This document shows positions 6,064-51,691 of a DNA stretch of 64,000 bases, in pieces (the first letter of the stretch is position 1; every line of letters begins with the position of its first letter). The stretch is from Candidatus Nitrosopelagicus sp. (GTDB lineage: Archaea > Thermoproteota > Nitrososphaeria > Nitrososphaerales > Nitrosopumilaceae), in the NCBI GenBank assembly GCA_028345195.1, contig JAOMCX010000005.1, positions 1 to 64,000 of the forward strand. Direction: 5' to 3'. A program made the translations under genes and the position numbers. Under the pieces are notes generated by a model. It had not been told where the DNA came from, did not search any database, and saw only the letters and a program-made list of their open reading frames with translations.

Positions 6064-7824
6064 CTAAATTCCAAAAATTGTTTTCTTGATGAATGCAATG
6101 TCTTCTGTTTCTTGACTAATTTTTCTATCAATAATTCTGAGCATATCATTTCCATATACCTGATTTGAGAAAAAGTTATGGGCCGTATTTGATTCTTCAA
6201 TCTTTGTTTCAACTGCTGAATCTTCTAGGAATTTTGTGACTACTTTGTCTGCCACATTCAAAATTTTTTCACATAATCTAAAATTCTGCATTATTTTTTC
6301 TAATTCTATAATATCAGTTTTGAAATCATCATGTTTTGCAAGAATATTTTTATGAATTATTCTTGCTGTAACTGCAACAAATAGGCTTTGAGCATATCTT
6401 TTATTCTTATTTTGGCTACTTTTTCTGTCATAACCTAAATTATTCTTAGCAAATTCTCGAATCAAATGTGGAAATAAGAAATATCTATAATCGCATTCTA
6501 AGTCATCATTAAAGACATTTTCATACTTTGCTCCATTTGGAAGATATTTTGCAATTCCTCCGTAGACCTCATTTGGTTTTTGAATAAAATATGATACAAA
6601 TGATGCAATAGCTGAATCATCTTTTATTCTACATCTGTCTTTTGCATCAGGAAGGTATTTGTTGTATATGTCATTTCCTTGAAACTTTGCCTTTTCCGCT
6701 ACAGAAAGATTTAGCCATAAACCTTGTTGATGTTCAAAACAATAATCTAATCTTGTTGCTAACATATGATGAATTGATACAAAGTAATCTTGCAACGATA
6801 CGTAATCTTTACCTTTAACCGCATTTTGTGAATTTCTGTATTTTGTAATTTTTCTTTGATGTTCTTCATCTTTTGTTTTAATTATGGTGACTAATACCTC
6901 GGCATCAACGTTGTTTGCTTTCTTTTTCTTATCTAGAATACTTTTTGATGTTTGTGCTCCATTAACAATCTGGGCACCTTTTAGGTATAGTTCATTTTTC
7001 TTTATTGAAACATCGTCTACTGTTATGGTAATTCCATTATTCCATTCAAAGAAATTATGTGGATCGTCCTCTAATGTAGATGAGATTTTTTTATTTATTG
7101 AGCCCTTTCCGCCTAAATGTTTTCTAATATTTGATTCAAAAATATAGTGTTCATTTTTCTCTACTAATTCTGCTAAATCAAAAGCAGATACTACGCAAAC
7201 TTTGGAATTTTTATGCTCAAGTGGTTGTCCAAGAATTTTTAAACTTGCATTTTGACCCTTTGCAGGTTTCTTGATACGTTCCCATAATGTTTGATATACT
7301 TGCTGTCTTCCCATAACTCTGACTTTGTCATTTTGATAATCATCTACACATTGGTCTGTAATGTAGACTAAATCCACCTTCATTTTCTTATCATTAAGAA
7401 TTTTCCAGAGATATTGTAACTCATCTCTCTTTAGTTTGGATTGTTCTTTTTCTTTTAATCGAAATACATCTTGAACAAATTGATCAATTGCTCCTATAGA
7501 ATGAGCAGAACCATACTTTGATTGGAATAATCTGATTCTCTTTTCATCTGAATCAACTAGATAAGCATCTATTCCTTCATCATATCCTCCATCAATTATT
7601 GCATTTTCTGCAATGTCTTGCAAAACCTCTTCAACATTAATTAAATGCCATAAGAGATAATCTCGACCTTTCTCAATTGTAGTGTTGGAATCTTTCATGA
7701 ACTCGCTAATACTCACGTCAACTGAATGTGTGGCAAATCCTTCTAATGGTGCGCTAGAAAATTTTGAAAGAATATCGCGTCCTCGTTCACTATATTCTAA
7801 GAGATTTGCTCCTTTAGGTGGCAT
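6064..7824 (-). CDS. AIPR-family protein, putative abortive-infection nuclease
   Basis: A 586-aa protein with the AIPR (abortive infection phage resistance) core: NIRKHLG (232-238), FFEWNNGITI (258-267), QIVNGAQTS (285-293) and a TKYRNSQN segment (327-334). The N-terminus looks like a PD-(D/E)XK nuclease: DGGYDEGID (78-86) then FQSK (100-103), giving Asp86 and Gln101-x-Lys103 as candidate catalytic residues. It stands alone, with no modification or helicase partner next to it, which is usual for this family. Family knowledge suggests anti-phage defence; the target is unknown. Its base composition does not differ visibly from its neighbours. Confidence 0.75.
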   Translation of the reverse strand: MPPKGANLLEYSERGRDILSKFSSAPLEGFATHSVDVSISEFMKDSNTTIEKGRDYLLWHLINVEEVLQDIAENAIIDGGYDEGIDAYLVDSDEKRIRLFQSKYGSAHSIGAIDQFVQDVFRLKEKEQSKLKRDELQYLWKILNDKKMKVDLVYITDQCVDDYQNDKVRVMGRQQVYQTLWERIKKPAKGQNASLKILGQPLEHKNSKVCVVSAFDLAELVEKNEHYIFESNIRKHLGGKGSINKKISSTLEDDPHNFFEWNNGITITVDDVSIKKNELYLKGAQIVNGAQTSKSILDKKKKANNVDAEVLVTIIKTKDEEHQRKITKYRNSQNAVKGKDYVSLQDYFVSIHHMLATRLDYCFEHQQGLWLNLSVAEKAKFQGNDIYNKYLPDAKDRCRIKDDSAIASFVSYFIQKPNEVYGGIAKYLPNGAKYENVFNDDLECDYRYFLFPHLIREFAKNNLGYDRKSSQNKNKRYAQSLFVAVTARIIHKNILAKHDDFKTDIIELEKIMQNFRLCEKILNVADKVVTKFLEDSAVETKIEESNTAHNFFSNQVYGNDMLRIIDRKISQETEDIAFIKKTIFGI

Positions 7825-8725: not shown

Positions 8726-9481
8726 ATGAGCTGGATTTATGATGCACATATCCATCTATCAGATCCTGAATACAAATCTGATATTGATATGATTCTAAAT
8801 TACATGGATTTGTTAAAAATCAAAGCATGTTGTGTCTCAATGGATATCGAAACTTCTAATGAAACCTTGACTTTACATGAAAAATCAAACAACATTCTAC
8901 CTTTCATCGGAATTCATCCTGAAATGGCTCAAAAAGATACATTACCTGTTTATGATCTGATTGAACAAAATCATGAAACTATTAGTGGTGTTGGTGAGAT
9001 TGGACTAGATAGAACCTACATTAATTTTGAAGATGAATGGAAAGTACAAAAAGATGTTTTCTCAAAACAACTATCTTTAGCAGAGAAATTTAACAAACCT
9101 GTATCTATTCATTCACGAAAAACATTACCTGATATTTTTGAAATTTTACCTTCTTACAAAATACCTGGAATTCTACTACATTGGTTTGATGGAAATAAAT
9201 CTCAATTAAAAACTGCTATGGATAATCAATATTTTGTATCATATGGTCCTTTACTGGTTTATGCAAATGATAAACAAGTATTACTTACAAAAACAGATCC
9301 TTCTAGGCTTTTGGTTGAGACTGATGGTCCTGTCAAATTTTCTCACTGTTTTGAATACAAAACCACTGAAATTATGTTTGTGTCAAGCGTAATTTTCTGT
9401 GCCTCCAAAATCCTTCATACATCGTATGAAAGTTTACTAGCCCAAATTGAAGATAATTCGAAGAAATTTTTAGGAATATAA
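8726..9481 (+). CDS. TatD-family metal-dependent hydrolase
   Basis: Amidohydrolase-fold TIM barrel of the TatD DNase family, 251 aa. Metal-site residues are visible: DAHIH (6-10), GIHPE (62-66), GEIGLD (90-95, Glu91), SIHSRK (127-132), LLHWFDG (150-156) and ETDGP (198-202, Asp200). Family members are 3'-5' exonucleases or deacylases; the substrate is not determinable here. The stop is followed directly by the S17e promoter. Confidence 0.85.
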   Translation: MSWIYDAHIHLSDPEYKSDIDMILNYMDLLKIKACCVSMDIETSNETLTLHEKSNNILPFIGIHPEMAQKDTLPVYDLIEQNHETISGVGEIGLDRTYINFEDEWKVQKDVFSKQLSLAEKFNKPVSIHSRKTLPDIFEILPSYKIPGILLHWFDGNKSQLKTAMDNQYFVSYGPLLVYANDKQVLLTKTDPSRLLVETDGPVKFSHCFEYKTTEIMFVSSVIFCASKILHTSYESLLAQIEDNSKKFLGI

Positions 9482-9518: not shown

Positions 9519-9947
9519 GTGGATAGAATAAAACGTATTTCAAATGAAGTTATGAATGAATATTCTGAACGTTTCGGAACTGATTTTGCAACTAACAAAC
9601 AATCATTGAATGAAATATCTATTGTACGTTCAAAAGGTCTGAAAAATAAAATTGCTGGTTATATTACCAAAATACTTCAAAGAAAAGCCAAATTTGATGA
9701 ACGAAAACAAATGTTAATTGATAATGAAAAGAAATCTCAAGAACGTAAACAATCAAGATCCAAAAAACCTGAAGTCGAATCTGACGAAGATACCTCATCT
9801 ATTGAAATTGTTGGTGGTGTCGAAGATCCTCATACTGACGAAGGAATAAGACATGTTACTGAAGAACCAGGCTCAGAAACTGAAACTACCGCATCTGAAG
9901 AAAAATCAACTGCTGAAGAAATTGTTGATGAATCCAAATCTGAATAA
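9519..9947 (+). CDS. rps17e: 30S ribosomal protein S17e with acidic C-terminal extension
   Basis: Residues 1-62 match archaeal S17e: the DRIKRISNEV helix, then FATNKQSLNE and a KNKIAGYITK segment typical of the family. Normal S17e is about 60-80 aa. Here about 80 more residues follow: a basic stretch (ERKQSRSKKP) and then a long Glu/Asp/Ser/Thr-rich tail to residue 142. GTG start supported by the TATA box at 9488. Confidence 0.85.
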   Translation: MDRIKRISNEVMNEYSERFGTDFATNKQSLNEISIVRSKGLKNKIAGYITKILQRKAKFDERKQMLIDNEKKSQERKQSRSKKPEVESDEDTSSIEIVGGVEDPHTDEGIRHVTEEPGSETETTASEEKSTAEEIVDESKSE

Positions 9948-9983: not shown

Positions 9984-10754
9984 ATGATTACTGTTAATTT
10001 CATAGGTGGCGCGAGAAAATCTTTTCAAACTGATTCTCTAGAAATAACTCAAAATATTGATACTATTTCTGAAATGATATCTCATCTTATTTCAAAAAAA
10101 CCAGAAAACACTCCTAATTTTGATGGAAAAAATTTATTGATTGCAGTCAATGGAGTTGATTCTTCGGCTCTTGCTGGTAACAACACTCGTCTAAATTCTG
10201 GTGATGTTGTAAATATCATACCAATAATCCATGGTGGCTCAAAAACAAATGTTACGTTTACAATAAAAAATAACCAAATTCAATTATTTGAAATTAAAAA
10301 ATCATGTGCGAATAAGGAATATCTTATATCTTTAAGAAAGAAATTTCCCAAATTATATTTACAAGCAATCTCCTCAAAATTTATACTTGATAAGGAACAT
10401 GCAAAAAAAATTATAACTATTTCTATAACCCAAAAATCAAATGACCAATTACTTTCCGATAAAATTGAAACTGATTTACTTCTGAGATTTTCAAATACAA
10501 CTCAAATTAAAGATGCAATAAAAAATGTTGGATTATCCGAATCTGAAAATTTTATTTTAATCTCTATAGGTGCAAAATCACATCTAACTAAACTAAATGA
10601 ATCTATATCTGATGATCAAGATGTAATTTTTACCAAAAACCATTCTATTTTTATCAAAAAATATTTTAAAATATCTTCTAAAACCCTAAATTCAATTGAA
10701 TCTAAAACACCTCTTGTTGATTTACTTGTTGAAAAAGCATCAATACTAATCTAA
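9984..10754 (+). CDS. MoaD/ThiS-like domain fused to KEOPS subunit Cgi121
   Basis: Residues 1-88 resemble a small ubiquitin-like sulfur-carrier protein: a beta-grasp pattern starting MITVNFIGGA, with NGVD (56-59), LNSGDVV (70-76) and a Gly-Gly at 84-85 (HGGSK). The Gly-Gly is internal and not C-terminal. Residues 90-256 look like Cgi121, the KEOPS subunit that binds the tRNA 3' end during t6A synthesis: LQAISSKFIL, then LLLRFSNTTQIKDAIKNVGL. Sua5/YrdC lies on the opposite strand just downstream and Pcc1 lies at 51446, so a t6A role is coherent. The stop overlaps the convergent THUMP gene by 9 bp. Confidence 0.7.
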   Translation: MITVNFIGGARKSFQTDSLEITQNIDTISEMISHLISKKPENTPNFDGKNLLIAVNGVDSSALAGNNTRLNSGDVVNIIPIIHGGSKTNVTFTIKNNQIQLFEIKKSCANKEYLISLRKKFPKLYLQAISSKFILDKEHAKKIITISITQKSNDQLLSDKIETDLLLRFSNTTQIKDAIKNVGLSESENFILISIGAKSHLTKLNESISDDQDVIFTKNHSIFIKKYFKISSKTLNSIESKTPLVDLLVEKASILI

Positions 10755-11267
10755 TTCAATACGTTTTTGTCTATTCACACTTAAAATTGTACTTGGTGGA
10801 ATTATACTAATACCTGTCTTATTTCTTAACACTTGAATAATTATTTCCCAATCTGAATTTTCTAATGAAACTTTATTTGATAATGAATCTGCAATATTGG
10901 AAATAATCTCACTAGTATGTAATGATGATTGTCGTTTTTCTACTGTAATTCTGTATGTATCATTTTTTTTAATTATATCTGATAATCTAATCACTTTATC
11001 TCTAATCTCATCTAATTTTGATTCACATTCTGCTTGAATAGGAATTATTCTCGAACAGTATTTGATTAACCATGGCTCATCTTCGATCACTCCTTTAAAA
11101 TTCTCTAAAACTTTCATTATATCCAATTCAGTTTCAACCTGAATTATTCCTGAAAAAATAGTTTTTTCAACAATTGGTCCTGTATCTCCGAATCTTTCTA
11201 ACATATTTTGTATCTCCAAAATAGTTGGTTCTTCAAGATTTCTCTGACATGTAATAATTAAATTCAT
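10746..11267 (-). CDS. THUMP-domain protein (Tan1-like)
   Basis: 173 aa with a THUMP RNA-binding domain over about 75-160: the CSRIIPIQAEC strand, YRITVEKRQSSL, and IISNIADSLSNKV followed by DWEIIIQVL and TGISIIPP. No methyltransferase or thiouridylase domain is attached. Stand-alone archaeal THUMP proteins resemble Tan1, the tRNA-binding partner needed for ac4C12 formation; that role is inferred. Start overlaps the end of the Sua5 gene by 4 bp, so the two are translationally coupled. Confidence 0.75.
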   Translation of the reverse strand: MNLIITCQRNLEEPTILEIQNMLERFGDTGPIVEKTIFSGIIQVETELDIMKVLENFKGVIEDEPWLIKYCSRIIPIQAECESKLDEIRDKVIRLSDIIKKNDTYRITVEKRQSSLHTSEIISNIADSLSNKVSLENSDWEIIIQVLRNKTGISIIPPSTILSVNRQKRIELD

Positions 11268-11863
11268 AATATTTTCTCTATGTCCTGTTTTGAAATCGAA
11301 CCTTCTCTAATTACTTTCAATTGATCATCAATAAAATCAATGATGGTTGATTCACCTAAACTAGTAATTTTTCCACCATTCACTAAAATATCTATTTCGG
11401 GTAGCTGTGTTTTACATTCATTCGGATCTAGAATTGATTTTTCACCTGAAATATTTGCACTAGTTCCAATAATTAATTTACATTTTTCTAAAATTGATAG
11501 CACACATTCATTATTTGGAACTCTCACAGCTAACTTTCCATTATTACTAATTCTTTGAGTTATTTCCTTTCTAATTGGAAGTAACATTGTGATTTGTCCT
11601 GGCCAAAATTTTTCCGAAATTTTTTCTGCAATTGTGTTAAATTCAACAATTTTCTCTAATTCTTTCTTTGAAAATCCTAAAATTGGAAATCTCTTCTCAC
11701 CTTCTCTGTTTTTTATATTATAAATTTTAGAAACGCTATCTTTATTGAAAGGATTACATCCTATCCCATAAACTGTATCTGTTGGATAGGCGATAATCTG
11801 TCCATTTTCATACGCATTTACAATTTTATTTATTCCATTTTTGTCGCAGTTTACTATATTCAC
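11264..11863 (-). CDS. Threonylcarbamoyl-AMP synthase (Sua5/YrdC/TsaC)
   Basis: Makes threonylcarbamoyl-AMP from threonine, bicarbonate and ATP, the activated intermediate for tRNA t6A37. YrdC-fold motifs are present: YPTDTVYGIGC (26-36), KNREGEKRFP (51-60), FWPGQITMLL (86-95), RVP (114-116) and TSANISG (134-140). At 199 aa it is the short YrdC/TsaC form without the C-terminal Sua5 domain. First gene of a pair with the THUMP protein. Confidence 0.9.
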   Translation of the reverse strand: MNIVNCDKNGINKIVNAYENGQIIAYPTDTVYGIGCNPFNKDSVSKIYNIKNREGEKRFPILGFSKKELEKIVEFNTIAEKISEKFWPGQITMLLPIRKEITQRISNNGKLAVRVPNNECVLSILEKCKLIIGTSANISGEKSILDPNECKTQLPEIDILVNGGKITSLGESTIIDFIDDQLKVIREGSISKQDIEKIL

Positions 11864-47605: not shown

Positions 47606-47644
47606 AAGTCAAATCGCCATTTTACCCAAATATAATATGATGTC

Positions 47645-48247
47645 TTACTTGATTTCAGATATGATTGTCTTAAATTCAGATAATTTACTTGATAATTGTT
47701 CTACACTTGATAATATGATATGTTTTGGATTTAGTGCTCCTGTTGATTCCACTGTCAAGAGTTTCTCATCATCTTTTTCAGTATCTGTCAATGTTACAAC
47801 ATTTGCTGAATTCCATCGTGCATGTTCGGTTCCTTTACCTAATCTTGCATATGCTTCAAATTTTATTGATTGACCTGGTGCAAGAGTAACTATTGGAATA
47901 TCATTTGATGTGGGAATGACGCTTTCATCTTGTGATTTCAATTCACCTGACAAAATTGTTCTTGTTTCATCTGAAACACCTGAATCTAATGTAATCATGA
48001 TTTTGTCATTTTCATTCCCATCTCTAGATGCATTCAAATCTGTTTTTAATGGAATTAAACCAACTCTGTGAGCTACACCTTCATCTGCTAAAACAGATGA
48101 ATTCTCCAACATATCGATACTTTCAACTGCATAAATTGGAACTCCATTCAAACAAATTCTTCTTAATGCATTAGCATATTGAAGTGGCACTCCCTTTATC
48201 TTAACAGATACTTTTTCATCATTTTCATTGGTAATTTCTAGAGACAA
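47645..48247 (-). CDS. rpoD: RNA polymerase subunit D (RpoD/Rpo3)
   Basis: Assembly platform subunit, alpha/RPB3-like. 200 aa with YANALRRICLNGVP (24-37) and ADEGVAHRVGLIPL (54-67). It has only one Cys, so the [4Fe-4S] domain 3 seen in many archaeal RpoD proteins is absent. TTG start with a TATA-like stretch about 27 nt upstream; divergent from SBDS. Confidence 0.92.
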   Translation of the reverse strand: MSLEITNENDEKVSVKIKGVPLQYANALRRICLNGVPIYAVESIDMLENSSVLADEGVAHRVGLIPLKTDLNASRDGNENDKIMITLDSGVSDETRTILSGELKSQDESVIPTSNDIPIVTLAPGQSIKFEAYARLGKGTEHARWNSANVVTLTDTEKDDEKLLTVESTGALNPKHIILSSVEQLSSKLSEFKTIISEIK

Positions 48248-51252: not shown

Positions 51253-51462
51253 ATGGCAAAAAAACAAACTACACTAAAAGGACTTGGTCCTAGATATGGA
51301 ATTAAAATTAGAAAATCATTTACCAAAGTCCATCATTTAATGAAGCAAAAAAGAAAATGTCCTGAATGTGGAGGTCCTGTCGTTCGTGAGGCAGTTGGAA
51401 TTTGGACTTGTAAAAAATGTGGACTAAAAATAGCTGGCACTGCATATGACGTTAAGCTTTAG
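51253..51462 (+). CDS. rpl37ae: 50S ribosomal protein L37Ae
   Basis: Zinc-ribbon ribosomal protein, 69 aa from ATG 51253 (a GTG at 51244 would add three residues). GLGPRYGIKIRK (10-21), CPEC and CKKC. In many archaea rpoP follows; here Pcc1 follows directly, overlapping by 17 bp. Confidence 0.92.
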   Translation: MAKKQTTLKGLGPRYGIKIRKSFTKVHHLMKQKRKCPECGGPVVREAVGIWTCKKCGLKIAGTAYDVKL

Positions 51463-51691
51463 CGCAAAAATTCAATTCTCTTCAGATAAAGAAAATAAAT
51501 CAATTTATGATTCAATTAACACTGACAATGAGTTCTATCCTGAAAATCCTACAAAAACAAAAATCTCTCTTAACAAAGAAATAATAATTGAACTTGAATC
51601 GCACCATTTACCTCATTTACGAGCAAATCTAAATTCTACATTACGCCTGTTACAAGCATCTTATGATACCATAAACTCTGTAAAGACATAA
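51446..51691 (+). CDS. pcc1: KEOPS complex subunit Pcc1
   Basis: 81-aa dimerisation subunit of KEOPS (t6A synthesis). The pattern SFSAKIQF, then a helical HHLPHLRANLNSTLRLLQAS segment (about 52-71), fits the family. Position between L37Ae and prefoldin beta is its usual place in archaea. Confidence 0.82.
   Translation: MTLSFSAKIQFSSDKENKSIYDSINTDNEFYPENPTKTKISLNKEIIIELESHHLPHLRANLNSTLRLLQASYDTINSVKT

Follow-up and report, generated by a model that had tools for sequence, protein, structure and literature searches.

Within the window analysed here, a stretch of 64,000 nucleotides from a contig of Candidatus Nitrosopelagicus sp., a single gene joins a ubiquitin-like (Ubl) domain to Cgi121, a subunit of KEOPS, which synthesizes the tRNA modification t6A. 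The genes and features around this junction are as follows, in positions of the window.

8726..9481, forward strand: TatD-family DNase, upstream of S17e, a conserved neighbour
9519..9947, forward strand: ribosomal protein S17e with a long acidic tail (Pfam PF00833), the conserved upstream neighbour of the fusion
9984..10754, forward strand: Ubl-Cgi121 fusion gene, one uninterrupted open reading frame with an ATG start, 256 amino acids plus stop; orthologues found
9984..10238, forward strand: ThiS/Urm1-type beta-grasp (ubiquitin-like) domain, residues 1-85 (Pfam ThiS; fold matches to Urm1 2k9x, MoaD 1fm0, and SAMP1 3po0)
10230..10238, forward strand: His83-Gly84-Gly85 (HGG), invariant and predicted to be disordered; predicted cut after Gly85 (between 10238 and 10239)
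10239..10751, forward strand: Cgi121, residues 86-256, first strand at about residue 89 (Pfam, NCBIfam, model, and Foldseek)
10746..11267, reverse strand: THUMP-domain protein, convergent, its 3' end overlapping the fusion by 9 bases
11264..11863, reverse strand: Sua5/TsaC, L-threonylcarbamoyladenylate synthase, the first step of t6A (NCBIfam TIGR00057)
51446..51691, forward strand: KEOPS subunit Pcc1 (Pfam PF09341, E = 2.8e-12)

An initial annotation had read residues 1-88 as a beta-grasp protein of the MoaD/ThiS/SAMP type and the remainder as Cgi121, and both assignments held, each half having family and fold matches of its own. In Pfam, ThiS (PF02597) matches residues 7-85 (E = 4.4e-9) and CGI-121 (PF08617) matches residues 121-238 (E = 8.1e-10), both above cut-off, as does the NCBIfam equivalog for Cgi121, NF011465 (E = 1.1e-32). 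The Ubl half matches Urm1 (Pfam PF09138) weakly (E = 0.05) and falls below the NCBIfam cut-offs for moaD_arch (E = 3.2e-7, 30.7 of 49.5 bits), Urm1_like (E = 6.5e-5, 23.1 of 70 bits), and SAMP1 (15.5 of 60 bits); it fits the ThiS family in sequence and the beta-grasp in fold but no named NCBIfam subfamily (MoaD, Urm1-like, or SAMP1). An AlphaFold2 model built on an alignment of 42 fusions has a mean pLDDT of 92.5. In Foldseek, its two halves had separate matches, the N-terminal one to structures of Urm1, MoaD, and SAMP1 and the C-terminal one to Cgi121 from yeast, human, plant, and archaeal KEOPS, the best being Cgi121 chain 4ww7_B (E = 3e-8, TM [target] 0.68). The earlier division into two domains thus stands, whereas the border, drawn at 88/89, lies nearer 85/89; the Gly-Gly is present at 84-85, as had been noted, and is preceded by His83. 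The whole protein is 98% identical to the nearest named record, and the genome is of the Candidatus Nitrosopelagicus type. Gln71 and Ile72 of M. jannaschii Cgi121 have a role in binding the tRNA 3' end (PMC7718258); the aligned residues of the fusion, Gln174 and Ile175, are invariant in the 42 fusions, and with the family and fold matches this makes the Cgi121 half look functional.

The arrangement of TatD, S17e, Ubl, Cgi121, a convergent THUMP protein, and Sua5 is kept through most of the taxonomic order of the host, and parts of it are kept beyond. Sua5 had been described as lying just downstream on the other strand; the strand is right, but the gene is not adjacent, as the THUMP-domain gene (10746-11267) intervenes. 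The assignment of Pcc1 at 51446 is borne out by its Pfam match.

To follow the fusion, we used a phylum-wide sample of genomes, 34 of which belong to the host family (Nitrosopumilus, Nitrosopelagicus, and Nitrosotalea types). Cgi121 occupies a frame of 245-271 residues, that of the fusion, in 33 of these 34, and a lone frameshift or assembly artefact is therefore rejected; the exception is a genome here called G116. Elsewhere in the order, 14 genomes representing 13 families encode the Ubl as a gene of its own directly upstream of Cgi121, usually overlapping it or a few tens of bases away, and these split Ubls end at HGG or a few residues on (HGGS, HGGL, HGGCL, and HGGMVGV). The same gene pair occurs in several further families of the phylum (f29, f43, f44, and f46). 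Almost all genomes of the family thus have the fusion, and the halves are two separate genes outside it; the separate genes are likely the older arrangement and do not speak for a frameshift peculiar to this gene. In a tree of both halves, the family's fusions group in a single clade (support 100/99) whose nearest relatives are the split families f2, f3, and f8, a pattern most simply read as a single fusion at the family's base.

The fusion itself has been known since 2010; the evidence for a processed precursor is new here. The report by Makarova and Koonin 2010 (PMC2948915) describes a fusion conserved in all Thaumarchaea then sequenced, with the same domain order and the same S17e neighbour (upstream in marine members) as in the window, describes a Ubl-E1 fusion as well, and proposes sampylation or coordination for the fused form. 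Its passages on the fusion that were consulted do not contain the unfused pair ending in HGG, the invariant junction, the re-split, the loss of Gly-Gly, or JAMM cleavage. No later experimental work on the fusion was found in open-access full texts, a source without many journals.

His83, Gly84, and Gly85 are identical in all 53 fusions found by HMM or whole-protein search, a set gathered without selecting on HGG; 80 further fusions, found partly by the HGG pattern, were kept out of this count and included in the entropy figures. Among 74 non-redundant fusions, column entropy is 0.00 bits for HGG and averages 1.35 bits for the rest of the Ubl, 1.48 bits for Cgi121, and 2.26 bits for residues 86-113, and the residues just past HGG are the most variable stretch of the fusion. 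All four bases occur at the third positions of the Gly84 and Gly85 codons, which places the constraint on the protein. Residues 83-85 are also the sole segment of the model with a pLDDT below 50, in a linker of about 3-6 residues and nearly constant length between the two folds. Judged by its invariance and low pLDDT, the Gly-Gly appears accessible, as in linear fusions processed by JAMM metalloproteases, and we infer that such a combination of invariance and disorder typically marks a site that another protein recognizes. HGG is unlikely to be a structural hinge, being disordered and having been lost in a fused relative (G050, below). That relative also shows that a fused Ubl can decay, as would be expected if the domain were a functionless passenger of an operon fusion; in the family, however, the Ubl is as conserved as Cgi121 and keeps its HGG without exception, which makes a passenger very improbable.

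The junction could instead belong to a protein that is never cut, the Ubl serving KEOPS as a permanent domain for docking or regulation that, for example, brings TtuA/NcsA or E1 to the same tRNA, with HGG as a binding or hinge motif. Such a role agrees with the near universality of the fusion in the family, and a short linker of near-constant length could suit a rigid two-domain protein; a tripeptide fully conserved yet disordered fits it less well, as do several natural variants. In G116 (L200, 1919-2689), GCC TGA TTG stands right after HGG, the Ubl ending in HGGA and Cgi121 restarting at TTG, and this genome is nested inside the fused clade. The re-split may be real or may be a sequencing error; a stop arising at random would have a chance of about 3% (7 of 256) of lying no more than three codons from Gly85. 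Like the split relatives, G116 would make two separate proteins. Elsewhere, the same Ubl is joined to an unrelated partner with HGG retained: in two distant families, the partner is a phosphoribosyltransferase and the next gene encodes Cgi121 (L213, 1494-2405; L045, 2796-3632). Furthermore, were the protein uncut, only cleavage of the Ubl-E1 fusion could provide another Ubl as a sulfur carrier, and on balance we consider an uncut docking domain unlikely. The Ubl-Cgi121 fusion of G050, independent of that of the family, has HCS in place of HGG (TGT AGC at the glycine codons), and neither E1 nor JAMM was found in this genome, which is 82% complete, so that their absence may reflect incompleteness. 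It is one case and not proof, and it goes the way expected if the glycines serve cleavage.

As encoded, the Gly-Gly of the fusion is internal (84-85 of 256) and would become terminal only after a cut. A free Cgi121 is not produced from a usual internal start in the window gene, where residues 86-256 contain no in-frame ATG, GTG, or TTG and none occurs in frame past codon 52, and an internal start was rejected for this gene. Family-wide, 46 of 133 fusions do carry such a codon no more than 18 codons past HGG.

We then took a census of Ubls in the 24 family genomes that are near complete (at least 90% completeness). Apart from the re-split G116, no free-standing Ubl was found in them, and all ThiS/MoaD-type domains above noise lie in frames of at least 245 residues, belonging to the Cgi121 fusion or to a fusion with E1 that is 438-498 residues long. 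Both kinds are present in 22 of the 24; in two near-complete relatives, G032 and G123, the Cgi121 fusion was seen and Ubl-E1 was not. All 11 Ubl-E1 fusions compared retain ValAlaGlyGly where the two parts meet; thus no Ubl found in the family has Gly-Gly as the encoded end of its own protein. The family's E1, with its own N-terminal Ubl and AGG junction a second instance of such a fusion, is exemplified by L063 (1195-2523) and L066 (1186-2586), and in G049 a Ubl like that of the E1 fusion is a separate gene ending in SGG just before E1. No E1 was found in the host assembly, which is 85.5% complete, and E1 is present in genomes of the same genus. On host contig C3, sequence located after E1 in a close relative starts 7 bases short of the contig end, which suggests an assembly gap; a true loss of E1 from the host genome is not supported.

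The host genome encodes two JAMM-type proteins, L052 and L053, with the full HxH-x7-SxxD motif, which belong to two orthologous groups; the gene of L052 is at G000:C29, about 47614-48081. In G040 and G044, genes for relatives of the L052 type adjoin those for Ubl-E1 or E1, and a reduced genome (G034; 0.8 Mb, 95% complete) retains only the L052 type. The second group (type B; L053, 1465-1863, reverse strand) is conserved in the family and missing in G034. In G049, E1 and a terminal HGG are present, and no JAMM match was obtained. The TtuA/NcsA thiolation family is present in 28 of 28 near-complete genomes, and its member in the host is matched by TIGR00269 (G000:C1:9139-9444). MoaE is absent from all 11 family genomes tested, which makes the molybdenum cofactor an unlikely client.

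We propose, with a probability of roughly 65%, that the fusion is a precursor cut by JAMM after Gly85 into a sulfur carrier for thiolation and Cgi121 for KEOPS. The gene would thus encode two proteins, separated by the cell's JAMM metalloprotease, most likely that of L052. The freed N-terminal half would end in a Gly-Gly carboxylate to be activated by the E1-like enzyme, would carry sulfur as a thiocarboxylate, and would presumably feed tRNA 2-thiolation by TtuA/NcsA. The C-terminal half would join KEOPS as the tRNA-binding subunit Cgi121 and serve t6A together with Sua5, encoded two genes away, so that one transcript, probably including S17e, would supply parts for two tRNA modifications. Cleavage after Gly85 is the most likely fate of the product by analogy with characterized JAMM enzymes: HvJAMM1 cuts SAMP1-MoaE exactly after the last Gly, also in vivo, with complementation only after the cut (PMC4443979); a Deinococcus JAMM cuts a natural MoaD-MoaE fusion (PMC8832034); and CsJAMM of Caldiarchaeum processes SAMP precursors (PMC6043591). 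Service of a Ubl in tRNA thiolation is established for SAMP2 and UblA (PMC11323500).

For cleavage we counted the 53/53 HGG, the disorder at 83-85, the split relatives, G116, the lack of a free Ubl, the Gly-Gly of the Ubl-E1 and phosphoribosyltransferase fusions, the glycine loss in G050, the two JAMMs, the presence of TtuA/NcsA with the absence of MoaE, and the published JAMM precedents. Against it we counted E1 missing in the host assembly, G032 and G123 without Ubl-E1, G049 without a JAMM match, the possible error in G116, the incompleteness of G050, the fact that TtuA can work with sulfide in vitro when no Ubl is present, and the existence of methanogens that lack Ubls (both PMC11323500). 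The initial annotation had offered three functional suggestions, which now differ in support while its domain assignment stands. That the halves are cleaved apart is best supported, by the invariant disordered HGG, the JAMMs, the separate genes in relatives, the lack of a free Ubl in the family save in G116, and the lack of an internal start codon for Cgi121. A link to tRNA thiolation is plausible given a TtuA/NcsA-type enzyme and no MoaE, and a docking domain, although possible, accounts less well for the conserved HGG.

Once released, the Ubl could have conjugation to proteins, KEOPS included, as its main job (sampylation), with the fusion forming part of a switch that regulates t6A synthesis. 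In Haloferax, proteins acquire SAMPs by conjugation and lose them through a JAMM (PMC4443979), the two JAMM types of the family could divide processing and removal, and regulation of KEOPS of this kind was proposed by Makarova and Koonin (PMC2948915). The TtuA/NcsA client in every near-complete genome, however, suffices to explain the Ubl, so that we hold conjugation as the main role to be improbable, more so than docking.

If the precursor reading is true, a major group of marine ammonia oxidisers needs a JAMM to obtain a usable sulfur carrier, and two tRNA modifications have a linked supply. A broader version, which we advance tentatively and at somewhat less than even odds, is that Nitrosopumilaceae make all their Ubl sulfur carriers as front halves of precursors (Ubl-Cgi121 and Ubl-E1), with one JAMM freeing them and with the parts for thiolation and t6A coming from one message in a fixed ratio. 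Such an arrangement would resemble that of eukaryotic ubiquitin, which is made as fusions to ribosomal proteins.

Among known systems, the Ubl-MoaE fusions (SAMP1-MoaE with HvJAMM1, and MoaD-MoaE with DR0402) are alike in their N-terminal Ubl, junction Gly-Gly, and a JAMM in the genome; in the present case, the partner is a KEOPS subunit, MoaE is absent in the 11 family genomes, and cleavage is predicted. The Ubl-E1 (Ubl-ThiF) fusion of Thaumarchaeota occurs in the same organisms and also has an N-terminal Ubl with Gly-Gly at the junction, but its Ubl is a different one (tail AGG, not HGG), as is its partner. Eukaryotic Urm1 and archaeal SAMP2/UblA share the beta-grasp fold, and the HGG tail is that of T. 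brucei Urm1, with the TtuA/NcsA client present; those proteins are free, whereas the Ubl of the fusion has Cgi121 behind its Gly-Gly and misses the Urm1 and SAMP1 cut-offs.

The S17e of the window is 142 amino acids long in all, with a long acidic C-terminal tail that varies strongly between species; the S17e open reading frame spans ~86-177 amino acids in the fused family and mostly 63-111 in the split families. The THUMP protein (173 amino acids) is without a catalytic domain, and its position beside the fusion and Sua5 is kept through much of the phylum. Farther upstream, this streamlined marine archaeon encodes an AIPR-domain protein of 586 amino acids (6064-7824, reverse strand; Pfam PF10592, E = 6.5e-45), of a family linked to phage resistance.
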